A stretch of DNA of 37,087 nt from Rubrivivax sp. Its GTDB lineage: Bacteria; Pseudomonadota; Gammaproteobacteria; Burkholderiales; Burkholderiaceae_C. Positions 1,409 through 12,397 of this stretch are shown in pieces. The notes under the pieces are model-generated. The model saw nothing but the letters and a program-made list of their open reading frames with translations, was not told the origin of the DNA and did no database searches. The position numbers were made by a program, and so were the translations under genes. Where the stretch lies: positions 1 through 37,087 of the forward strand of contig JAEUPF010000127.1 of assembly GCA_016790425.1 (NCBI GenBank), given 5' to 3'. Each line of letters starts with the position of its first letter. Position 1 is the stretch's first letter.

Positions 1409-3163
1409 CTACACGCGCCAGGGCAGCAGCGGCGGCAGCGCGGCTTCGCACCCGGCAGTGAAGGCTTCCTCGAAGACCGAGTAGCCGGCGAGGTCGGCGT
1501 GGGCGAAGCGCAGCCGCCCGTTGGCCGCGCGCAGCGCAGCGAGCGCGGCATGGCGCTGCAGGCCCGGGCGCGGCACCGCCATCGCGTGGCCGTAGCGCGC
1601 GAGGTCGATGCGCTGCACGCGCCAGCGCAGCTCGCGGTGCGCGGTCTCGATCTCGCCCAGCACCCGTTCGGCCCAGGGCCGCGGGTCGTCGGCGAGCAGC
1701 GCGCCGCGTTCGCCGGCACCCAGCGCGTGGTACGCGGTCAGCACCGGCTGCTCGCCCGGGCCGGGCACCGGGCTCAGCCGCTGGTGCGTGGCGTCGACGT
1801 AGCCGAGGCCGCGGCCGCCGTGGATCACGTTGTCCCACGCCGGCGGCGCGCCTTGCACGTTGTCGAACAGCGGCCGCTCGAGCAGCAAGTTGGCCACGAG
1901 CCAGGGCGCGGTCGTCACCGCCTCGCCGGCGGCGCGCAACGCCGAGGCGAGCGCGGCCGAGGCCGGCTGCACGACGTGCCGTGCCACCTGCAGCGGCAAT
2001 GCGACGACGACGGTGCCGGCTTCCCACGCCCGCGGCTGCTGCAGCGCCTCGTCGAACGCGAGCACCGTGACGCGGTGGCGTTCCTCGCGCACGGCGAGCA
2101 CGGTGTGCGCGGTGTGCAGGCGGCGGCCGCCGCCTTGGCCGGGCCGGGCCTCGCCAAGCGGCGCGGCCAGGCGCCGCGTCAGCCAGGCATTGCCCTCGGG
2201 CCACGTGAACACCGCTTCGCGTGCCGAGCCGGCGCCGCTCTCGGGCGCCTCGCCGTCGCCCGGCGCAGCGAAGCCGTGCCGGCTGGCGAAGTAGTGCACG
2301 CCGGCCCAGGCCGAGACTGTGGCGATGCCGGCGCCGTAGTCGTCGCGGCAGCAGTAGTCGAGGTAGGTCGTCAGCACCGGGTCGGTGATGGCGTTGGCGG
2401 CGAGCCAGCGCGCGAAGGTCGTCGCGTCCAGTGCGGCCAGCTCGGCCGTCCAGCGCGAGCGGTGCGCCGGCAGCGCGAAGGCCGGGCCGCCGCGGTTCGG
2501 GCCGGCGCCGCCGCCCGGCCGCTGCAGCGCCGAGACCCGCGCGGCGAAGCGGCGGTACTGCGCCAGCCTTGCCGAGCCCGCTTCGGCCGGCGGCAGCAGC
2601 CCTTCGATCCAGCGGCCTTCGAAGAAGAGGCGCTCCTGCGGGCTGTGGCACAGGTGCCGCTCGTCGGGGCGAACGCGGCCGGCGGCGTCGGTGTGCAGCA
2701 GGCCGATCTCGTGCAGCCACTCGGCCACCTCGTGCGCCTGCGCGCCGGGCAGCGGCAGGTAATGCGCGCCCAGCGGGCAGGCGGTGCCGCCGAGCGCATG
2801 CGCGCGGGCGTTGCCGCCGGCGCTGTCCTCCAGTTCGAGCACCTGCACGTCGTCGATGCCGCGGCGGGTGAAGGCGCGCGCGGCCGCGAGGCCGGCGACG
2901 CCGCCGCCGAGCACCAGCACCGCCGCGCGCTGCGCCGCCCCCGGCACAGGCCAGGCGCGGCCGACGAGGGCATCGCGCCAGGCAGCGTCGCGCAGCCGGT
3001 GCCCGCGCGGGTGCGCCGCGCCGCCGACCCAGCGCAGTTCGATGTCGCGCCCGGGCGCCGGCCGGTGCGGCCCGTTCGCCTCAGGCGGCCGGCGTCCGCA
3101 CGCCAGCAGCGCGGCGCTGCTGCCCGCTGCCGCCGCCGTCGCCAGCAGCGTCCTGCGCTTCAT
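1409..3163 (-). CDS. Tat-exported FAD-dependent amine-oxidase-like lipoprotein
   Basis: The product is 584 aa. The N-terminus MKRRTLLATA carries a twin-arginine motif and is followed by a hydrophobic Ala-rich stretch and a lipobox ALLAC (C22), so export by Tat and lipid anchoring are expected. An FAD-binding Rossmann motif GGGVAG lies at residues 86-91, followed by an acidic strand end (LELEDSAGGNA). The C-terminal segment around GRLRFAHADLAGYS resembles the second FAD-contact region of flavin amine oxidases. The family oxidises amines or related substrates. Folding with a cofactor before export fits the Tat route. It follows the membrane aminopropyltransferase gene by 60 bases in the same direction, so a polyamine-type substrate is a reasonable inference. 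Phytoene-desaturase-like or other amine-oxidase-fold activity is also possible. Confidence 0.8.
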   Translation of the reverse strand: MKRRTLLATAAAAGSSAALLACGRRPPEANGPHRPAPGRDIELRWVGGAAHPRGHRLRDAAWRDALVGRAWPVPGAAQRAAVLVLGGGVAGLAAARAFTRRGIDDVQVLELEDSAGGNARAHALGGTACPLGAHYLPLPGAQAHEVAEWLHEIGLLHTDAAGRVRPDERHLCHSPQERLFFEGRWIEGLLPPAEAGSARLAQYRRFAARVSALQRPGGGAGPNRGGPAFALPAHRSRWTAELAALDATTFARWLAANAITDPVLTTYLDYCCRDDYGAGIATVSAWAGVHYFASRHGFAAPGDGEAPESGAGSAREAVFTWPEGNAWLTRRLAAPLGEARPGQGGGRRLHTAHTVLAVREERHRVTVLAFDEALQQPRAWEAGTVVVALPLQVARHVVQPASAALASALRAAGEAVTTAPWLVANLLLERPLFDNVQGAPPAWDNVIHGGRGLGYVDATHQRLSPVPGPGEQPVLTAYHALGAGERGALLADDPRPWAERVLGEIETAHRELRWRVQRIDLARYGHAMAVPRPGLQRHAALAALRAANGRLRFAHADLAGYSVFEEAFTAGCEAALPPLLPWRV

Positions 3164-3223: not shown

Positions 3224-4849
3224 TCACCGCACCTTCCCCCACTCTTCCTCGAACGTGCTCACCAGCACCTGGTTCGAAAGGCGATTGGGCTCGGCGGCCA
3301 CGCGCGCCATGTCCGGCGGGAACTGCAGCAGCGCCGGCATGCCTTCGACGGTGAGGAAACGCAGGCCCGGCGGCAGCGCGCGCACGCCGGGCCACGGGCG
3401 GCGGCCTGCAAGCACGAAGCCCCATTCGCCGAAGCTGGGCACGAGCGCGTGGTAGGGCCAGGTCGCGAAGCCCACTGCCTCGAGCGTGGCGACGACGGTC
3501 CAGAAGCTGCGCCGCGCCACCAGCGGCGAGGTGGTCTGCACGACGATCCAGCCGCCGGCGGCGAGCACGCCGTCGGCGCGCTGGTAGAAGCTTGTCGTGT
3601 ACAGCTTGCCGAGCGCGTAGTTGCTCGGGTCGGGGAAGTCGGCGATGACGATGTCGAACGGCGCCGCGTTGCCGGCGGCGATGGCGCGCGCGTGCTGTTC
3701 GAGCCAGCCGAACGCGTCGGCGTTGACGACGCGCACCTTGGGGTTCGTCAGCGCGTGCCCGTTCAGCTCGGCCAGCAGTTCGTGGCGCGCGAAGAGCCGG
3801 GTGATGTGCGGGTCGAGGTCGACCAGCGTCACCTGCTCGACGCCGGCGTGGCGCAGCACCTCGCGCACCGCCAGGCCGTCGCCGCCGCCCAGCACCAGCA
3901 CGCGTTTCGGCGCGCCGTGCGCCGCCAGCGCCGGGTGCACCAAAGCCTCGTGGTAGCGGTATTCGTCGCGCGAGTGGAACTGCAGGTTGCCGTTGAGGAA
4001 GAGGCGGATGCTGCTCCCGCCGCCGGCCCCGCCGCCGCTGCGCGTGACGACGACGCGCTGGTACTCGCTGCTCTCGCGCAGGATGATGCCTTCGCCGTAG
4101 AACTGGTCCTCGGCCCAGGTGGTGAGGCGGGCCGCGCCGAGCATCGCCGCGGCGAGCACCGCCAGCACCATCGCGCAGGCGAGCGCGTGGGCTCGCCAGC
4201 GGCGCAGCTCGCCGCGAAAGAGCACCAGCGCCCACACCGCCACCGCGGCGTTGAGCAGCCCGAAGAAGACGCCGGTGCGCACGAGCCCCAGGTGCGGCAC
4301 GAAGACGAGCGGGAACGCCACCGCCACCACCAGCGCGCCGAGGTAGTCGAACGTCAGCACCTCGGAGACCAGCTCCTTCAGCGCGTAGCGCTGGCCGAAG
4401 TGGCGCTTGAGGATGCGCATCACGAGCGGGATCTCCAGCCCGACGAGCAGCCCGACGAGCAGCACGCAGCCGTACAGCAGCACGCGGAACGCCGGGCCGC
4501 CGCCGAAGCCCCATTCGTGCGGCATCAGGTTGTAGGCGGCGAAGAGCGCCGCCGGCATCAACCCGCCGACCAGCCCGACGAGCAGCTCGATGCGCAGGAA
4601 CTGCGCGACCAGTTGTCGCTCGACCAGGCGCGACAGCCATGAGCCCAGGCCCATCGCGAACAGATACGTGCCGATGACGGTGCTGAACTGCAGCACCGAG
4701 TCGCCCAGCAGGTAGCTGGCCAGCGCGCCTGCGGCCAGCTCGTAGACGAGGCCGCAGGCGGCGACGACGAAGACGCTGGCCAGCAGCGCCACCTCGGCCG
4801 GCGCGGGGCGCGGCCGGGCCGCGCTCGCGGCGGTGGTGGATGGCGTCAC
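3224..4849 (-). CDS. Membrane-embedded spermidine-synthase-like aminopropyltransferase
   Basis: The product is 541 aa, about twice the size of a soluble spermidine synthase. The first ~230 residues hold about seven hydrophobic helices. The C-terminal half is a spermidine-synthase fold with the nucleotide-binding motif LVLGGGDGLAVREVL near residue 320, an acidic strand end VDLDP, and the likely active-site loop IADFPDPSN near residue 400. Soluble relatives transfer the aminopropyl group of decarboxylated AdoMet to putrescine; here the acceptor is unknown. The start is GTG at 4849; no ATG lies closer to the first helix. It sits between the DUF350 gene and the FAD lipoprotein gene in one minus-strand run. 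No AdoMet decarboxylase gene is present in the window. The fold call is strong; the substrate is inference. Confidence 0.88.
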   Translation of the reverse strand: MTPSTTAASAARPRPAPAEVALLASVFVVAACGLVYELAAGALASYLLGDSVLQFSTVIGTYLFAMGLGSWLSRLVERQLVAQFLRIELLVGLVGGLMPAALFAAYNLMPHEWGFGGGPAFRVLLYGCVLLVGLLVGLEIPLVMRILKRHFGQRYALKELVSEVLTFDYLGALVVAVAFPLVFVPHLGLVRTGVFFGLLNAAVAVWALVLFRGELRRWRAHALACAMVLAVLAAAMLGAARLTTWAEDQFYGEGIILRESSEYQRVVVTRSGGGAGGGSSIRLFLNGNLQFHSRDEYRYHEALVHPALAAHGAPKRVLVLGGGDGLAVREVLRHAGVEQVTLVDLDPHITRLFARHELLAELNGHALTNPKVRVVNADAFGWLEQHARAIAAGNAAPFDIVIADFPDPSNYALGKLYTTSFYQRADGVLAAGGWIVVQTTSPLVARRSFWTVVATLEAVGFATWPYHALVPSFGEWGFVLAGRRPWPGVRALPPGLRFLTVEGMPALLQFPPDMARVAAEPNRLSNQVLVSTFEEEWGKVR

Positions 4850-4919
4850 GCGTGCGCCCCGTTCCCGTTCCCGTCCGCACGGCCGCGCGCTGCGCGGCCG
4901 GGCGCGGCAGGAAGCAACG

Positions 4920-5144
4920 TCAGCCGTGCACGGCCGCGGCGACGATGAGGCCGATGGCGATGCACATCGAGCCGAGGAGGATTGCCAGCGCCAGGTTCTT
5001 CTTCTCGACGATCTCGCCCCACAGGTCGTAGGGCGTGAGCTTGTCGATGATGACGAAGGCGATCCAGAACACCGCCACGCCGATCAGCGCGTACAGCAGC
5101 GAGCCGAAGAAGGCGCTCGGCTTCAGCCATTCCAGTCCGATCAC
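4920..5144 (-). CDS. DUF350 small membrane protein
   Basis: The product is 74 aa with two hydrophobic helices (about residues 13-33 and 50-72) joined by a charged loop containing DLWGEIVEKKN, which is characteristic of DUF350 (YjfL-like). Family members are small inner-membrane proteins of unknown biochemical role, and some carry several copies of the unit; this one has a single copy. The GTG start at 5144 is supported by an excellent ribosome-binding site AGGAGGT at 5157-5151, seven bases upstream. It lies between the DUF4178 gene and the aminopropyltransferase gene, 70 bases from the latter. DUF350 beside SPFH and DUF4178 genes suggests a shared membrane complex (inference). Confidence 0.88.
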   Translation of the reverse strand: MIGLEWLKPSAFFGSLLYALIGVAVFWIAFVIIDKLTPYDLWGEIVEKKNLALAILLGSMCIAIGLIVAAAVHG

Positions 5145-5225
5145 TTCAGCACCTCCTGGGCCGCTGCGGCCCTTGTGATGGGTTCACGTCGTCTCGCGCC
5201 GTCGTCATGCCGGTCGGGCCCTTGG

Positions 5226-6953
5226 CTACTTGTGCCCGCCGCCGCCGCCCCCGCTGCCCCAAGAGCCGCCGCCGGTGCGCCCGCTGCTGCCCGAGCTGCG
5301 CTGCGCCAGGCATTGCCGGTACTCGTTGCTGTTGGGACCGTACGACAGCTTCAGGTCGTCGCAGCGGTCGCCGCCGCTGCCGCACTCCGACAGCACGCTC
5401 AGCACGATCAGCAGCAGCACGACGACGATGATGACCTTGCCGAGGCCCATGCGCTTGCCCGAGCCGCTGAGCGGGGCCACGTCGCGCTGCATCGCGGCGC
5501 GCTCGCCGGCGGCGATGCCGAAGGCGTCGGCCACCTTGGCGGCCTCGATCACTGCGCCGGCCGACCACACGACCTCGCTGCCGCCGCGCTCGCCGGGCCG
5601 GCCCGCCTCGCTGCGCGTCTCCTCGCGCGACAGGCGCTTGCGGCTGTCGCCGCCGGTGCCCGTGTAGTCGGTGACACGGGCGCGCTCGCCGCGCAGCACG
5701 CGCCAGTAGAACTCGCCCTGGACCCAGGTGACCTTGGCGTCGTACGTGTACTTCTTCTGGTAGCCCGCGCCCTGGAACTGCGCCCGGTCGCCCTTGACCT
5801 GCGGCGCGCCGGTGACCGGGCGCACCCAGCTCCAGCCGTCCTCCTCGGAGTCGACGAGGAAGGCGAAGCCGAGCTCGCGGTTGTAGAGCAGGTACTCGCG
5901 CCAGAAGGTCTGCTCGTCGTCGCTGCCGGGCTCGGGGACGTCGCAGCGTTCCTGGTAGCCCACCACCTGCCAGGGCTTCGCTTCGCTGGTGCCCAGCGCC
6001 AGGCTGCCGGTCTTGCCGAGCGCGATCTGCGGCCCGAGGCCGCCCGCGGGGGTGTTGCTCTGCGTGTAGTGGGCCAGCTCGCCGCCGACGCCGGCCGAGA
6101 GATCGACGACCGCATTGCACTGGCCGCAGGTGATGCTCCGGGTGCTGGCGAGCTTGACCTCCAGCGGTGTGCCGCAGTTCGGGCATTGGACGCCGCGCGC
6201 GCCGAGCGTCTTCTCCTTCGGCTCGCTGGCCAAGCCGCTCATCGCCAGCGCCGACAGCAGCACCGGCCGGCCCGTGGACCAGCCGATGCGCCCGGGGTCG
6301 CTGGCGTCGAGCGTGCCCACCTCGTCGTCGCCGCGGCGCAGGTCGGCGACGAGGAAGTCGCCGTGCAGCTGCGGCGGCCGCGGCAGCTCGCCCTGCGCGG
6401 CGATGAGGTGCGCCTTCACCACCGAGGCCACGTCCCACGCGCGGCCCTCGACGGCGATGCGCTGGCCGGCGGTGAGCGTTTCCAGCGCCGGCACGCCGGC
6501 CGGCGGCTCAGGCGCGTCGAACGCCATCACGTAGGCGCCGTTGTCCTCCGAAAGCCAGCCGCTCTTGCCGGTGTCGAAAAGGGCGTGCCACTCGTTCCAG
6601 GTGCCGCCAAGAGCCGATCCGCCTATGCCGGGCGGCCCTTGCTCCGCGGGGGGCGGCGAAGGCGAAGCCGGCGCCAGGGGACCCCAGGAATAGCCGTACT
6701 GCAGGCGGCCGACGAGGGTGAACGCGCTGCCCTGGAACGAACCGCCCGCGCCCAGCTGCAGCGGCGAGTGGTCGTCGAACAGCTCGGCGCTGGTGCCGAT
6801 GCGCAGCAGGGCCTCGCCGTCGCGCACGAGCGTGCTGCGGCAGAAGCTGCACACGGCGCTGGCCGAAGCGGCCGAGGCGAACTCGACCGGCGCGCCGCAG
6901 TTCGGGCAGGCCGCCCGGTAGGCGCGCTGCGGGGATCCCGCTGTCGTGGCCAC
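5226..6953 (-). CDS. DUF4178 protein with two zinc ribbons and a C-terminal membrane anchor
   Basis: The product is 575 aa. A CxxC...CxxC zinc ribbon (C16, C19, C35, C38) opens the protein, and a second similar ribbon lies at about residues 256-281 (CPNCG and CGQCN). Each is followed by a beta-rich region with the look of DUF4178, so the protein reads as a duplicated ribbon-plus-DUF4178 unit. A single hydrophobic helix (about 505-522, VVVLLLIVLSVLSE) follows. The tail has two Cys in a short ordered patch and ends in a Gly/Ser-rich run with a final HK. The GTG start at 6953 fits the first ribbon. It lies between the SPFH gene (67-base gap) and DUF350 (81-base gap). Function is unknown; a membrane-anchored adaptor is inferred. 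Confidence 0.82.
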   Translation of the reverse strand: MATTAGSPQRAYRAACPNCGAPVEFASAASASAVCSFCRSTLVRDGEALLRIGTSAELFDDHSPLQLGAGGSFQGSAFTLVGRLQYGYSWGPLAPASPSPPPAEQGPPGIGGSALGGTWNEWHALFDTGKSGWLSEDNGAYVMAFDAPEPPAGVPALETLTAGQRIAVEGRAWDVASVVKAHLIAAQGELPRPPQLHGDFLVADLRRGDDEVGTLDASDPGRIGWSTGRPVLLSALAMSGLASEPKEKTLGARGVQCPNCGTPLEVKLASTRSITCGQCNAVVDLSAGVGGELAHYTQSNTPAGGLGPQIALGKTGSLALGTSEAKPWQVVGYQERCDVPEPGSDDEQTFWREYLLYNRELGFAFLVDSEEDGWSWVRPVTGAPQVKGDRAQFQGAGYQKKYTYDAKVTWVQGEFYWRVLRGERARVTDYTGTGGDSRKRLSREETRSEAGRPGERGGSEVVWSAGAVIEAAKVADAFGIAAGERAAMQRDVAPLSGSGKRMGLGKVIIVVVLLLIVLSVLSECGSGGDRCDDLKLSYGPNSNEYRQCLAQRSSGSSGRTGGGSWGSGGGGGGHK

Positions 6954-7020
6954 GCTCGCTTGCGCGGGTCTTGTTATCGCGGTGTTGGCTGGCGCTGGCG
7001 CAGCGGCTTGGCGCGTGCGG

Positions 7021-8088
7021 TCACACGAGTTTCTTCAGCAGCTCGGCCTTCTTGGCGCTGAATTCCTCGTCGGTGAGGATGCCCTTGGCCTTCAGCTCGC
7101 CCAGCTTCTCCAGCAGCGCCATCACGTCGTCGGCCTTGACGCCGCCGGCGGCGGCACCGGCGGCCTGCGCAGCCTGCGCCGCCGCTGCGGCCGCGCCGGC
7201 GCTGGCCCCTTGCAGCCCCTGGTTCAGCTGCTGCGCCATCACCTGCCCGAGCGCGACCCCGGCGCCCAGGCCCATCGCGTCGCCGACGACGCCGCCGCCA
7301 CCGCCTGCGGCGCCCTTGGCCATCTCGGGGATCGCCTGCGCCGTCTGGTACTGCATGAAGCGGCCCATGTCGCCGCCGACCATGCCCATGCCGATCTTCT
7401 GGTCGAGGACCTTCTGCAGCTCCTCGGGCAGGCTGACGCTTTGCAGCGTCACCTTGTCCAGCGCCAGGCCGAGCGCGGTGAACTCGGCCGCGGTGGCTTC
7501 CTGCAACTGTTTGGCGAACTCGACCTGGTTGGCCGCCAGGTCGAGGAACGGCACGCCGCTTTGCGCCACCGCGTCGCTGATGTGCTGCAGCATCAGGCCG
7601 CGCAACTGCCCGTCGAGGTCTTCGACGGTGTAGCGCTCGCGCGTGCCGCTCACCGCGGTGTGGAAGACCTTCGGGTCGGCGATGTGGTAGGCGTAGTTGC
7701 CGAAGGCGCGCAGCCGCACGGCGCCGAAGTCCTTGTCGCGGATGGTGACCGGCTGCGCCGTGCCCCAGCGGCGGTCGAGCTGCTGGCGGGTGCTGAAGAA
7801 GTACAGGTCGCTCTTGAACGGGCTCTGGAAGAGCTTGTCCCAGTTCTTCAGGTAAGTGAGGACGGGAATCGTCTGCGTCGTCAGCTTGTACATGCCGGGG
7901 CCGAAGACGTCGGCCAGCTTGCCCTCGTTGACGAACACCGCCATCTGGCTCTCGCGCACGGTGAGCGAGGCGCCGTACTGGATCTCGTTGCCGGCCATCG
8001 GGAAGCGCCACGCGAGCGTGCCGTCGCCGCTCTCGGTCCATTCGAGGATGTCGATGAACTGTTTCTTGATGAAGTCCATCAGCGCCAT
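7021..8088 (-). CDS. SPFH-domain (YdjI/'virion core'-type) protein with C-terminal SHOCT-like segment
   Basis: The product is 355 aa from the ATG at 8088. This start is chosen because AAGGAG lies nine bases upstream and the conserved opening MALMDFIKKQFIDILEW begins here; a longer frame upstream is non-coding in character. Residues ~20-230 form the SPFH/band-7-like domain, with no N-terminal membrane helix. An Ala/Gly/Gln-rich flexible region follows (about 245-315). The protein ends in LGELKAKGILTDEEFSAKK, the hallmark of a SHOCT oligomerisation tail. SPFH proteins assemble into membrane-associated rings or microdomain scaffolds. As first gene of the minus-strand run it probably drives expression of the DUF4178, DUF350, aminopropyltransferase and FAD genes. 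The scaffold role here is inference. Confidence 0.88.
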   Translation of the reverse strand: MALMDFIKKQFIDILEWTESGDGTLAWRFPMAGNEIQYGASLTVRESQMAVFVNEGKLADVFGPGMYKLTTQTIPVLTYLKNWDKLFQSPFKSDLYFFSTRQQLDRRWGTAQPVTIRDKDFGAVRLRAFGNYAYHIADPKVFHTAVSGTRERYTVEDLDGQLRGLMLQHISDAVAQSGVPFLDLAANQVEFAKQLQEATAAEFTALGLALDKVTLQSVSLPEELQKVLDQKIGMGMVGGDMGRFMQYQTAQAIPEMAKGAAGGGGGVVGDAMGLGAGVALGQVMAQQLNQGLQGASAGAAAAAAQAAQAAGAAAGGVKADDVMALLEKLGELKAKGILTDEEFSAKKAELLKKLV

Positions 8089-8176: not shown

Positions 8177-9409
8177 GTGAATCGAACCGCGTGGCGCGTG
8201 GCCGTCATCGGCGCCGGCCCGGTGGGGCTGGCGCTGGCGCTGCACGGCGCCCGCCTGCTGCCCGAGGCGAGCTTCACCGTCTACGACGCGCGCGCCGCCG
8301 GCCGCGATGTCGCGGCCGACCCGCGCACGCTGGCGCTGGCGCTGGGCAGCATGATGTTCCTGCAGCGACTGGGCTGCTGGCCGGCGGCCGCCGCGGCGCC
8401 GATCACCTCGGTGCACGTGTCGCAGGCACCGCCTTCCCCCGGTCAGCCCGAGGTGCTGATCGAAGCCCGCGAGATGGCGGTGAAGCAGCTGGGCGCCGTG
8501 CTCGGCTACGGCGCCCTGGTGGCGCCGATGCAGCAAGCCTGGGAAGCGGCGTGCGCGGCAGAGCCGGCGCGGCTTTCGCTGCGGCTGGGTGCGCCGGTGG
8601 CGAGCGTCGCGACCGTCGGCGCCGAGGTGGCGGTGCAACTGCCAGGCGGCGGCGCCGCGCAGCACCACGACCTGGCCGTCGTGGCCGAGGGCGGCGTCTT
8701 CGCCGAGCAGGCGAAGAAGGGCGTGGCGCGCGACTACCGGCAGACGGCCTGGGTGGGCAGCGTCGTGCTCGAAGGCCGGGACCCCGGTGCCGCCGACGTG
8801 CGCGGCCGCGCCTACGAACGTTTCACGCGGCAAGGGCCGGCGGCGCTGCTGCCGCTGCCCGATGCGGGTGGCGGCCGCCGCACGGCGGCGCCGTCGGAAG
8901 GGCGCCGCCGCGCCGCCTTGGTCTGGTGCGTGAACGCCGACGACGACCCGGTGCGGCCGCTGGCGCCGGCGCAACGCCTGGCGCTGCTGAACACCGTCTT
9001 CCCGGCCGAGGCCGGCCGCATCGTCGAGCTGTCGGCGTTGAAGGACTTCGCGCTCGGCCTCAACGCCGAGCGCACGCTGGTGCAGGGCCGCGTCGTGCGC
9101 ATCGGCAACGCGGCGCAGACGCTGCACCCGGTGGCCGGCCAGGGCCTGAACCTCGGCCTGCGCGACGCGCACGCGCTGGTCGCCGCGCTGCGCGACGCCG
9201 ACGACCTGGAACGTGCGCTGAAGCGCGTCGAATGGCAGCGCGCGCCCGACCGCTGGACGATGATCGCCGCCACCGATTTCCTCGCCCGCTCGTTCACCTG
9301 GGGCGCGCCGGGCATGGGCACGCTGCGCGCCGCCGGGCTGGCCGCGGTGCAGCGCCTGCCGCTGCTGAAGGACGCGCTGGCGCGCCGGATGATGTTCGGC
9401 GCCCGGTAG
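8177..9409 (+). CDS. ubiH: FAD-dependent ubiquinone-biosynthesis hydroxylase, UbiH/COQ6 family
   Basis: The product is 410 aa, standard for the family. The N-terminal dinucleotide-binding motif GAGPVG lies at residues 12-17. The second FAD motif reads GNAAQTLHPVAGQGLNLGLRD near residue 312; the GNAAQ variant in place of GDAAH is what I recall for UbiH itself, so UbiH is preferred over UbiF or UbiI. The enzyme would use O2 and NAD(P)H to hydroxylate a ring position of the prenylated quinone precursor at the membrane face. The start is GTG at 8177; no other start gives the complete FAD motif. It is transcribed divergently from the SPFH operon and converges on an MFS gene. Confidence in the family is high, in the exact paralogue moderate. 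Confidence 0.85.
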   Translation: MNRTAWRVAVIGAGPVGLALALHGARLLPEASFTVYDARAAGRDVAADPRTLALALGSMMFLQRLGCWPAAAAAPITSVHVSQAPPSPGQPEVLIEAREMAVKQLGAVLGYGALVAPMQQAWEAACAAEPARLSLRLGAPVASVATVGAEVAVQLPGGGAAQHHDLAVVAEGGVFAEQAKKGVARDYRQTAWVGSVVLEGRDPGAADVRGRAYERFTRQGPAALLPLPDAGGGRRTAAPSEGRRRAALVWCVNADDDPVRPLAPAQRLALLNTVFPAEAGRIVELSALKDFALGLNAERTLVQGRVVRIGNAAQTLHPVAGQGLNLGLRDAHALVAALRDADDLERALKRVEWQRAPDRWTMIAATDFLARSFTWGAPGMGTLRAAGLAAVQRLPLLKDALARRMMFGAR

Positions 9410-9473: not shown

Positions 9474-11015
9474 TCAACGCGGCCTGGCGCAGACGCGTGG
9501 GTCGGGCCGGTCGTGCGGTTCGTGCGAATCGTGCGGCTCGTGCGGCTGGTGCGGCTCCGGCGACTCGTGCGGCTGCGGCGACTCGTGCGGCTGCGGCGGT
9601 TCCGGAAGCTCGCGCGGCGGGCCGTGGTGCGTGCGCAGGCCGGCGAGCGCGACGAAGCTCAGCGTCATCCAGGCCCCGGCGGCGAGCAGCGCACGCTCGA
9701 CCACGAAGCGCTCGCCGGCGGCGGCCTCGCCTGCGCCGCGCGCCATCGCCCCGAGCAGCACGCTGCCGCCCAGAAGGCCGACGTTCGTCAACAGGGCCAC
9801 CGCGCTTTGCGCCAGGCCCTGGCCCGCCGCCGGCACCGCGCGTGCCGCGGCGTAGCGCAGCGGGCCCCCGCACAGGCCGACGATGCCGAAGCCGAAGGCA
9901 CCGGCACCGGCCATGAACGCCAGCCGCGAAGGGGGCGCCAGCACCGCGAGCAGCGCGCCGACCGACGCTGCGGCGGCGCCCAGCGCCAGCAGGCGGCGAG
10001 CGCCGAAGCGGTCGAGCGTTGCGGTGACCAGCAACGTGGCGGCGATCCCCCCGGCCACCAGCGGCAGCATCAGCACCGAGGTGGCCAGCGGCGCCACGCC
10101 CAGCCGCGCGATGGCCAGCGTCGGAAACCACACCAGCATCGCCTGCCCGACGCCGGTGCCCAGCGCCAGCACGGCGATGGCCACCGTTTCGCGCTGCCAG
10201 AGCCAGGTGCGCGGGCCCGCCGGCGCGGCGACCCGGTCGCGCGCCTGGCCCGCATCGGCCGCGCGCTGCGCGGCCGACACGGCGGCACCGCTTTCCCCGG
10301 TGCGCGACCAGGATGCGGCCGATCGACTCGTCGTGGCCAGCGCCGAGGCCGTGGCGAACACGCTGAGCGCGAAGCAGGCGCGCCAGCCGCCCCATTGCAG
10401 CAGCGGCGGCGCGACCGCCGTCGCGGCGAGGAAGGCCACGCCGTAGGCGAGCGACAAGGCGCCCAGCAGCCGACCTTGCCGCGCCGGCGGCCAGCGCTGC
10501 GCCACCAGTGTCGCCGCCAGCGGCAGAAGCGGTCCTTGCCCGAGGCCCTGCAGCAGGCGCGCCGCGAGCACCGGCGCGATGGCTGCCGAGGCCAGCGCGA
10601 GCAGTGCGCCGGCCAGCGCCAGCACGAGCGCGGCGCGGTACAGGCGCAGTGCGCCGCAGCGCGCCACCGCGCTGCCGGCCAGCGGGATGCCCGCCAGCAT
10701 GCCGGCGACGTACAGCGAAACGAACCAAGAAGCGGTCTGCGCGTCCGCACCGGTGGCCAGGCGCAGGGCCGGCAGCACGTAGCCCACGGCACCGGCGTCG
10801 AAGCCGCTCGCCGCGGCACCGAGCAGCAGTGCGGCCGCGGCCGCGCCACCGCCACCACCGTCGCCGGCGCTGCTGCCGCTGCCGCCGCTGCCGCTGCCGC
10901 TGCCGCTGCCGCTGCCGCTGCCGCTGCCGCTGCCGATGCCGATGCCACCGCCGCTGCCACCCGCGCGCTCGGCTGCGGCCAGCCCGGGTGGTCGTCCTGC
11001 TGCGGCGGCGTTCAC
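9474..11015 (-). CDS. MFS transporter with Gly-Ser repeat N-terminus and His-rich C-terminus
   Basis: The product is 513 aa with about twelve hydrophobic helices between residues ~50 and ~470, and an MFS motif-A-like loop (TLDRFGARR) in the second half. The start is GTG at 11015, overlapping the stop of the phospholipase-D-like gene in GTGA; no ATG exists before the first helix. The first ~45 residues are low complexity, with about ten Gly-Ser units encoded by a hexanucleotide repeat. The last ~35 residues are Pro/Glu/His-rich with seven His in a repeating PH(E/D/Q) pattern. The helix core is a general major-facilitator exporter or importer whose substrate cannot be told. The two tails are unusual and should both face the cytoplasm. 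Confidence 0.8.
   Translation of the reverse strand: MNAAAAGRPPGLAAAERAGGSGGGIGIGSGSGSGSGSGSGSGSGGSGSSAGDGGGGGAAAAALLLGAAASGFDAGAVGYVLPALRLATGADAQTASWFVSLYVAGMLAGIPLAGSAVARCGALRLYRAALVLALAGALLALASAAIAPVLAARLLQGLGQGPLLPLAATLVAQRWPPARQGRLLGALSLAYGVAFLAATAVAPPLLQWGGWRACFALSVFATASALATTSRSAASWSRTGESGAAVSAAQRAADAGQARDRVAAPAGPRTWLWQRETVAIAVLALGTGVGQAMLVWFPTLAIARLGVAPLATSVLMLPLVAGGIAATLLVTATLDRFGARRLLALGAAAASVGALLAVLAPPSRLAFMAGAGAFGFGIVGLCGGPLRYAAARAVPAAGQGLAQSAVALLTNVGLLGGSVLLGAMARGAGEAAAGERFVVERALLAAGAWMTLSFVALAGLRTHHGPPRELPEPPQPHESPQPHESPEPHQPHEPHDSHEPHDRPDPRVCARPR
10885..10944. repeat. Hexanucleotide tandem repeat coding for Gly-Ser units
   Basis: Eight perfect copies of CCGCTG run from 10885 to 10932, followed by two CCGATG variants to 10944. 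On the coding (minus) strand they read Gly-Ser repeats near the N-terminus of the MFS transporter. Because the unit is six bases, copy-number change would alter length without shifting frame. Confidence 0.9.
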
Positions 11016-12397
11016 TGGAAGTCGCGGAACGCGCGGTCGAACCAGCGCAGCCGCGTGGCGCCTTGCAGCCACTGCTGCACTTCGGCGGGCGTCGCCGCCA
11101 TCGCTTCGGACCAGCCGCTGTCGAAGAACGCCAGCAGCTCGCGTGCCAGCCGCGCGTCGTCGACGACGAGGTTGGTCTCGCAGCAAAAGCGCGGCGAGAA
11201 GTAGTCGAGGTTGTGGCTGCCGAAGCTGACCCAGCGGCCGTCGACGACGAGGTACTTGCAGTGCAGCGTGCGGCCCTTGCCGCGGCGCAGGTGAACGGCG
11301 CAGCCGCCTTCGAGGATTCGCCGCAGCCCTTCGTAGGTGGTCCAGGTGGCGAAGGGCAGATCGTTCGAGGCGGCCGAGTTGGTGAGCAGGCGCACCGCGA
11401 CGCCGCGGCGCGCCGCCGCCGCCAGCGCCTCGACGAGCGGCTCGTGGGCGACGAAGTAGGCCAGTTCGAGCTCGACGCTGCGGCTGGCGGCGCCGATGGC
11501 CGCGAGCGCGAAACGCATCATCGGGTCGGCGAGCACGCCGGCCGGGGTGTGGTCCAGCCAAGGCGCCACCTGCGGCACCGCGCGTCCGATGGCAGCGCCG
11601 CTGCCCTCGGCGGCACCGGCCGCCGCCGCCACCCACACCGCTTCGAACAGCCGCGCCAGCGGCGCCACCGAGGGCCCGTGCAGCACGAGGTCGAGGTCGC
11701 GCCAGGCGTCGCCGCGGTAGTGGTCGGCGAAATTGCGCCCGCCCACCAGGGCCGCCGCGCCGTCGACGATGATCATCTTGCGGTGGTTGCTGTCGTAGGG
11801 GCGCTGCGGGTCGTGCCACTGCCGCAGCGCGATGCCGCCGGCCACGGCCTCGGCCAGCAACGCCGGCAGGCCTTCGACCTCCTGCGTCTTCTTGAAGGTC
11901 ATGAAGCGGTCGACGAGCAGCCGCACGCGCACGCCGCGGCGCACGGCGCCCAGCAGCGCCCGCACCGTGGCGCGGCCGGTCGCGTCGGATTGCAGGTAGT
12001 AGCTGGCGATGTCGATCGAGCGCGCCGCGCCTTCGTACAGCGCCTCGCGGCGGGCGAACCCGGCGGCGCCATCGGCCACGAGCTCGATGCGGTCGTCGGC
12101 GTGCAGGCGGTGCTGCTCTCCGGCGAGCGCGTCACGCCGCTGCGCCGCGTCGCCGCCGCTGGCCTGGCGCCACGCGCGGTGCACCTCGCGCCAGCCGGGC
12201 GCGCCGCGCAGCAGCGCCCACAACCGCGCCTGCAGCATGTAGGCGATGCCGGCGGCGTAGCTGCGCACTTCGCCCTCGCCGAGTGAGGCCAGCGCCGGCG
12301 GACGGCCCAGCCGCCGCAACGCCAGCAGCGGCGTGGCCAGCGCGGCGGTCAGCAAGGCTGGCGGCATCGGGCATGCGGCGAGAAGGCACGCGAGCAT
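11012..12397 (-). CDS. Phospholipase-D / cardiolipin-synthase-family protein
   Basis: The product is 461 aa from the ATG at 12397. Two intact HKD motifs are present: HRKMIIVD at residues 205-212 and HCKYLVVD at 379-386, each followed by the usual GxxN/SxN signature (GGRNF, GSHNL). The family makes or breaks phosphodiester bonds; bacterial two-motif members of this size commonly act as cardiolipin synthases. The N-terminus begins with a short hydrophobic stretch containing LLAAC, which could be a lipobox or a membrane anchor. A second ATG at 12367 is possible, and neither start has a clear ribosome-binding site. Its stop overlaps the GTG start of the MFS gene, so the two are translationally coupled. 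It is divergent from the dehydratase-like operon across 84 bases. Confidence 0.87.
   Translation of the reverse strand: MLACLLAACPMPPALLTAALATPLLALRRLGRPPALASLGEGEVRSYAAGIAYMLQARLWALLRGAPGWREVHRAWRQASGGDAAQRRDALAGEQHRLHADDRIELVADGAAGFARREALYEGAARSIDIASYYLQSDATGRATVRALLGAVRRGVRVRLLVDRFMTFKKTQEVEGLPALLAEAVAGGIALRQWHDPQRPYDSNHRKMIIVDGAAALVGGRNFADHYRGDAWRDLDLVLHGPSVAPLARLFEAVWVAAAAGAAEGSGAAIGRAVPQVAPWLDHTPAGVLADPMMRFALAAIGAASRSVELELAYFVAHEPLVEALAAAARRGVAVRLLTNSAASNDLPFATWTTYEGLRRILEGGCAVHLRRGKGRTLHCKYLVVDGRWVSFGSHNLDYFSPRFCCETNLVVDDARLARELLAFFDSGWSEAMAATPAEVQQWLQGATRLRWFDRAFRDFQ

Follow-up and report, generated by a model that had tools for sequence, protein, structure and literature searches.

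A gene set around a protein that joins a seven-helix part to a spermidine-synthase domain was described by Ravi et al. in 2024, together with DUF350, DUF4178, PspA and a CesT-like protein (PMC11237479). In the passages of that paper considered here, further variants lack PspA and the CesT-like protein—one has a band-7 protein ending in SHOCT instead—and operon variants include an AdoMet decarboxylase and a polyamine oxidase, with 2TM also named. In the same passages, an intracellular location is predicted for the DUF4178 protein, and a suggestion, not an established function, is offered for the gene set (PMC11237479). Hence, the set itself is not new. The ydj operon of B. subtilis resembles the locus described here in its band-7 protein and zinc-ribbon membrane protein, encountered in a PspA context; unlike our locus, no transferase, DUF350 or oxidase is named for it in the respective passage (PMC11237479).

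A further relative in architecture is the fungal NHMT, which shares with our transferase the seven helices—N-terminal in NHMT—and the spermidine-synthase-like domain (PMC10349129). According to the parts of that paper considered, NHMT is ER-resident, requires its membrane part, which reportedly occurs in filamentous fungi only, and methylates only after exact signal-peptide cleavage, as far as the authors' tests suggest. An Ile replaces the dcAdoMet-binding Asp/Glu of the GxG(D/E)G motif that spermidine synthases need (PMC10349129). NHMT, whose enzyme domain is probably lumenal, provides a precedent for a seven-helix enzyme with a spermidine-synthase-like domain.

MFS–spermidine-synthase fusions encoded with speD and DUF350 apparently belong to the same protein family as our transferase. 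Li et al. (2019) reportedly proposed a non-putrescine acceptor for them: the AdoMet decarboxylases of such bacteria are said to be active, while spermidine is absent and a SpeE mutant is not complemented.

The locus lies in a window of 37,087 nucleotides of Rubrivivax sp. (contig JAEUPF010000127.1), the whole stretch of DNA analysed, and comprises five genes:

7021..8088, minus strand: SPFH/Band_7_1 protein of 355 aa with a C-terminal SHOCT domain (Pfam PF13421, 1.6e-75; PF09851, 5.8e-9).
5226..6953, minus strand: DUF4178 protein of 575 aa with two zinc ribbons, two beta-rich domains and one C-terminal hydrophobic helix (PF13785, 7.7e-27).
4920..5144, minus strand: DUF350 protein of only 74 aa with two hydrophobic stretches, as read by eye (PF03994, 1.7e-14).
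3224..4849, minus strand: fused transferase of seven membrane helices (residues 17-251) and a spermidine-synthase-fold domain (about 254-541) (NCBIfam NF002956, 666.6 bits, cut-off 472).
1409..3163, minus strand: flavin amine oxidase with a twin-arginine (Tat-like) signal and a lipobox-like cysteine (PF01593, 1.4e-18; N-terminus by eye).

The original prediction of four same-strand genes with short gaps holds in gene order and in the identity of all four proteins, the gaps being 67, 81 and 70 bp. Its operon range of 3224..8088 is right for these four genes and one gene too short, as it missed the oxidase gene, which follows on the same strand 60 bp downstream of the transferase gene. Third-position GC is 0.94-0.95 for all five genes. 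The five-gene grouping is not due to chance, and the oxidase belongs to the set. An aldo-keto reductase gene further downstream is an irregular neighbour, with 4 matches in the best 80 of at least 557 loci. With the band-7 variant of Ravi et al., as far as its description in the passages considered goes, the window has in common the 7TM-fused transferase, DUF350, DUF4178, the band-7 protein with SHOCT and the oxidase, and it differs in that the AdoMet decarboxylase gene lies outside the cluster (PMC11237479).

The set was also predicted to recur in other bacteria, and a gene-neighbourhood search bears this out. A contig scan confirmed at least 557 stretches, of which the best 80 loci were kept—a set that leans to close relatives, since the best matches were retained. 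Flanks of at least 4.5 kb upstream and at least 2.2 kb downstream are available for 54 of these 80. In these 54, a search of the transferase's strand up to 10 kb away gave DUF350 in 43, DUF4178 in 48, SPFH in 42 and the oxidase in 47, with all four in 34; speD was found on the same strand in 9 and on the opposite strand only in 18. More distant partners can escape detection, as the search profiles derive from the proteins of the window. Seven of the 54 loci are titled outside beta/gamma or unassigned Pseudomonadota, and loci were found under the titles Acidobacteria, Gemmatimonadetes, Solitalea and Fibrobacteres; the records titled outside Pseudomonadota are mostly MAGs. One Bryobacteraceae-titled locus (L130) carries a single run of SPFH, speD, two DUF4178 genes, DUF350, transferase and oxidase, and the Solitalea-titled locus bears the full set minus SPFH. 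In a phylum sample, 22 of 200 genomes carry the fused gene above cut-off. Within 20 regions of other sampled genomes—one of which (L164) belongs to the window's family—15 have DUF350 in the vicinity of the transferase and 10 have speD there. As had likewise been anticipated, no function is settled for this set: the one describing paper that was found gives a suggestion only, in the passages considered (PMC11237479).

A link to dcAdoMet is suggested by a sample of 100 genomes from the window's family, the window's own genome included. Above cut-off, the fused gene is present in 55, speD in 55 and DUF4178 in 54 of them. Fused gene and speD occur together in 51 genomes, each without the other in 4, and neither in 41 (Fisher 1.3e-18, kinship ignored); fused gene and DUF4178 occur together in 54, the fused gene only in 1, DUF4178 only in 0, and neither in 45 (Fisher 7.5e-28, kinship ignored). 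Three of the four fused-only genomes without a speD match are 65-89% complete and one is 97% complete. Of the four genomes with speD only, a stand-alone SpeE-like match exists in three and is absent from one (G296). In 45 genomes, the fused gene and speD occur without any stand-alone SpeE-like match above 100 bits, weaker spermidine-synthase-like matches not being counted; in six genomes speD may serve SpeE, as a stand-alone SpeE is present beside both. Fused gene and speD share one contig in 35 family genomes, and in 19 of them speD is found downstream, on the opposite strand and no more than 10 kb away; distances were measured in 31 of these 35, with 4 distant pairs left out. In the genome of the window (82% complete), the speD family and the spermidine-synthase family give a single match each; the spermidine-synthase match is the window gene, and speD, which other phyla carry inside the cluster, lies on another contig (C161, 22.7 kb).

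Where the enzyme domain resides relative to the membrane can be approached from the charges of the loops, for which we used an alignment of 24 diverse sequences and another of 61 closer sequences. In the former, loops 2-3, 4-5 and 6-7 carry 9.0 Lys and Arg residues on average, and loops 1-2, 3-4 and 5-6 carry 1.8, with the same sign in 24/24 and a smallest difference of 3; in the latter, the averages are 9.3 and 2.2, with the same sign in 61/61 and a smallest difference of 5. Under the positive-inside rule, these loop charges suggest a cytoplasmic N-terminus and a helix 7 that runs towards the outside, and with seven helices the spermidine-synthase-fold domain would therefore come to lie in the periplasm. 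Helix 7, which roughly matches the other helices in hydrophobicity, shows no amphipathic character (moment 0.10) and is followed by an acidic stretch. Hence, judged by a sequence rule and a model, the transferase domain may be located on the outer (periplasmic) side of the cell membrane. This outward orientation is the new proposal of our analysis, whereas the gene set is already published. The passages of Ravi et al. considered here contain no assignment of the transferase to the extracytoplasmic side (PMC11237479), and among the matches listed we found no publication that makes one, judging by titles and abstract starts. The enzyme domain is Cys-free in the window's transferase; in the two alignments, the same holds for 20/24 and 41/61 sequences, and eight stand-alone SpeE-like proteins average 1.03% Cys. 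We give this little weight, as the presumably cytosolic SPFH partner is equally Cys-poor (0.04%, or 0.0004 per residue). Acidic residues reside within helices 1, 3, 4 and 5: E37 and E88 in 23/24 sequences each, E139 and D168 in 24/24 each. Searches with Pfam and NCBIfam profiles revealed no transporter homology in the membrane part; with respect to MFS, residues 1-250 had no Pfam match, and structure searches spanned the enzyme domain only.

Two partner proteins fit an outward topology—the Tat oxidase and, in other clusters, a beta-domain between two helices. In the window, the oxidase N-terminus bears, by eye, a twin-arginine motif, a hydrophobic stretch and a lipobox-like cysteine; among the 63 usable N-termini from 69 oxidase frames in the best 80 of at least 557 loci, loose patterns find an RR motif in 62 and a lipobox-like motif in 52. 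The DUF4178 protein has eight zinc-ribbon Cys residues, invariant in 48/48 sequences, and its AF2 model (pLDDT 82.3), with the hydrophobic C-terminal helix at 504-525, yielded no confident fold match in structure searches. When the C-terminal 225 residues of twelve long DUF4178 proteins are used as a profile, 27 DUF4178 frames are recovered, none of them in a cluster of the window's own type; in six distant loci, the profile also matches stand-alone proteins encoded between DUF350 and the transferase (first-pass E 2.2e-8 to 1.7e-3). Inspected by eye, the DUF4178 tails and two of the stand-alone proteins (L158, L155) share a layout of helix, beta-rich part and helix. One lineage thus has this domain as a fusion to DUF4178 and another has it as a separate protein, which links the two. 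The same profile finds no beta-domain in any of the five window proteins. Whereas Ravi et al., in the passages considered, predict DUF4178 to be intracellular (PMC11237479), DUF4178 in other clusters here carries this beta-rich domain between two helices.

Taken together, our main reading is a conserved envelope system with outward-facing aminopropyl transfer from dcAdoMet to a non-putrescine envelope amine, in which the donor passes via the membrane part, a Tat oxidase edits the product, and SPFH and DUF4178 hold the assembly; we assign it a probability of roughly 0.42. Cytosolic SpeD, whose gene is present and co-occurring, would make dcAdoMet. The fused protein, with its N-terminus inside and its seven helices arranged as the charge distribution suggests, would expose its enzyme domain to the periplasm, and the four buried membrane acids might form a cation path that passes dcAdoMet outward. 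The outer domain could then aminopropylate an envelope amine—speculatively, the head group of phosphatidylethanolamine or an amine of an exported protein. The oxidase, presumably Tat-exported in view of its signal pattern, might oxidise or trim this product and thereby set its level, while the SPFH–SHOCT protein as a putative cytosolic-side scaffold and the zinc-ribbon DUF4178 protein would hold the complex from within. SPFH replaces the PspA and CesT-like protein of another cluster type, as the passages of Ravi et al. state (PMC11237479) and as one locus here (L158) illustrates, in which DUF4178 and a DUF350 large enough for eight helices come after the CesT and PspA genes.

The core of this reading—bacterial aminopropyl transfer outside the cytoplasm, whereby a seven-helix protein with buried acids conducts dcAdoMet to its own periplasmic domain, an envelope amine is modified and a Tat-exported oxidase edits it—is put forward tentatively, at somewhat short of even odds. 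Its step most open to doubt is the crossing of the membrane by dcAdoMet, as we know of no export or membrane crossing of this compound. The outward reading is further weakened by the many loci that lack one or more of the four partners, by the window's proteins bearing no beta-domain and its own speD lying on another contig, by the four family genomes with the fused gene and no speD match, one of them 97% complete, and by the six in which speD may instead serve a stand-alone SpeE.

The main rival is the mechanism of the original prediction, which we consider unlikely: a cytosolic transferase domain would use dcAdoMet to aminopropylate a lipid or protein at the inner face of the membrane, with SPFH and DUF4178 organising the site and the product being flipped out for the oxidase. 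The original interpretation is supported in part: its aminopropyl transfer agrees with the dcAdoMet-site residues kept in 24/24 sequences. As first formulated, with a putative SPFH ring as organiser, it contained neither the oxidase nor speD nor the likely outward topology. It is compatible with the suggestion of Ravi et al. as given in the passages considered (PMC11237479). By eye, SpeD—the source of dcAdoMet—has no visible export signal, and neither do the SPFH and zinc-ribbon DUF4178 proteins, as expected for an inward-facing site. However, such an orientation needs about nine positive charges on average in the outer loops in all 61 and 24 sequences, and it sets the transferase and its oxidase on opposite sides of the membrane.

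For the enzyme domain itself, the positions D324 (in GGGDG), D346, D378, D404, D407, Y299, H300 and Q264, which we take to be dcAdoMet-binding and catalytic, are identical in 24/24 and 61/61 sequences. Given this invariance of the donor site, decarboxylated AdoMet is most probably the donor. The closest solved structures are triamine/agmatine aminopropyltransferase (3anx/1uir) and thermospermine synthase (6bq2), with a match spanning about 242-520 only; these enzymes have no membrane part, a Glu where ours has Asp in GGG(D/E)G, and another acceptor loop. That all catalytic positions are kept, that the curated name of NF002956 is polyamine aminopropyltransferase and that the nearest structures are of triamine type would suit a membrane-tethered synthase of ordinary or long-chain polyamines—spermidine, thermospermine or similar—with a periplasmic oxidase that degrades exported polyamine. 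Yet we regard this as improbable: the transferase scores 124.3 bits against the curated SpeE model TIGR00417, under its cut-off of 249.55, an S-F-G-E/D-W-G acceptor loop occupies the position of PTYPSGLW in B. subtilis SpeE, and the bacteria of Li et al. (2019) reportedly showed neither spermidine nor complementation of a SpeE mutant. Ordinary cytosolic spermidine synthesis appears to be a poor fit as well, since the acceptor loop differs and the partner oxidase carries an export signal. Very improbable is a loss of aminopropyl transfer, with the domain now serving PSP-like envelope stress machinery as a methyltransferase or as a ligand sensor, for although a PspA/CesT cluster shares the gene and a spermidine-synthase-like domain became a methyltransferase in NHMT, the Asp of GxG(D/E)G—lacking in NHMT according to the parts of that paper considered (PMC10349129)—is the invariant Asp324 (24/24 and 61/61) here, and speD co-occurs with the fused gene.

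The fused gene is common in the window's family (55/100 genomes), and the set is found in several phyla. If the transferase does face outward, its reaction would be a cofactor-dependent alkylation that takes place outside the cytoplasm and is supplied through a dedicated donor path, and the bacterial envelope would gain a new polycation modification.

The region beyond the operon holds three further frames in the window:

8177-9409, plus strand, UbiH/UbiF-type flavin hydroxylase (NF005421, 284.9 bits, below the cut-off of 450)
9474-11819, minus strand, long frame that by eye contains a Gly-Ser repeat as well as a region resembling MFS proteins
11012-12286, minus strand, PLD-like protein (PF13091, 6.2e-39)

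The flavin hydroxylase gene and the SPFH gene form a divergent pair, and the stretch 9474-10728 of the long frame has no Pfam match at 1e-5. The PLD-like gene, which by eye resembles cardiolipin synthase, lies a few kb from the operon; Ravi et al. (PMC11237479) mention a related operon with phospholipase D.

Clusters of other genomes bear additional elements. An unnamed β-rich domain, which by eye is flanked by one membrane helix on each side, is fused to the C terminus of DUF4178 in L114, L121, L122, L136, and L108, and stands alone between DUF350 and the transferase at positions such as these:

L158:6818-7453
L148:7786-8442

Directly ahead of the transferase, PspA-type clusters encode a small protein with a single hydrophobic stretch and a Gly-Tyr-rich tail:

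L158:7416-7709
L155:7447-7791
L162:7816-8184

AdoMet decarboxylase (speD) and SpeE matches share one open frame in two sampled genomes (456 and 479 aa)—apparently SpeD–SpeE fusions that lack the membrane part:

G223:C16:3213-4412
G224:C4:295943-297067

An apparent oxidase–SpeD fusion at L125:4122-5597 was rejected as an artefact of an N run within the oxidase frame. In genome G296, profile searches found speD but no SpeE-like match, whether fused or stand-alone.

The window's own genome has a sole speD match:

L003:890-1315, minus strand, speD

By eye, this gene adjoins a transketolase-like gene, and a contig end is close by. Since speD in relatives often lies downstream of the operon and convergent to it, C160—presumably the window's contig—and C161, which carries this speD, may be adjacent.
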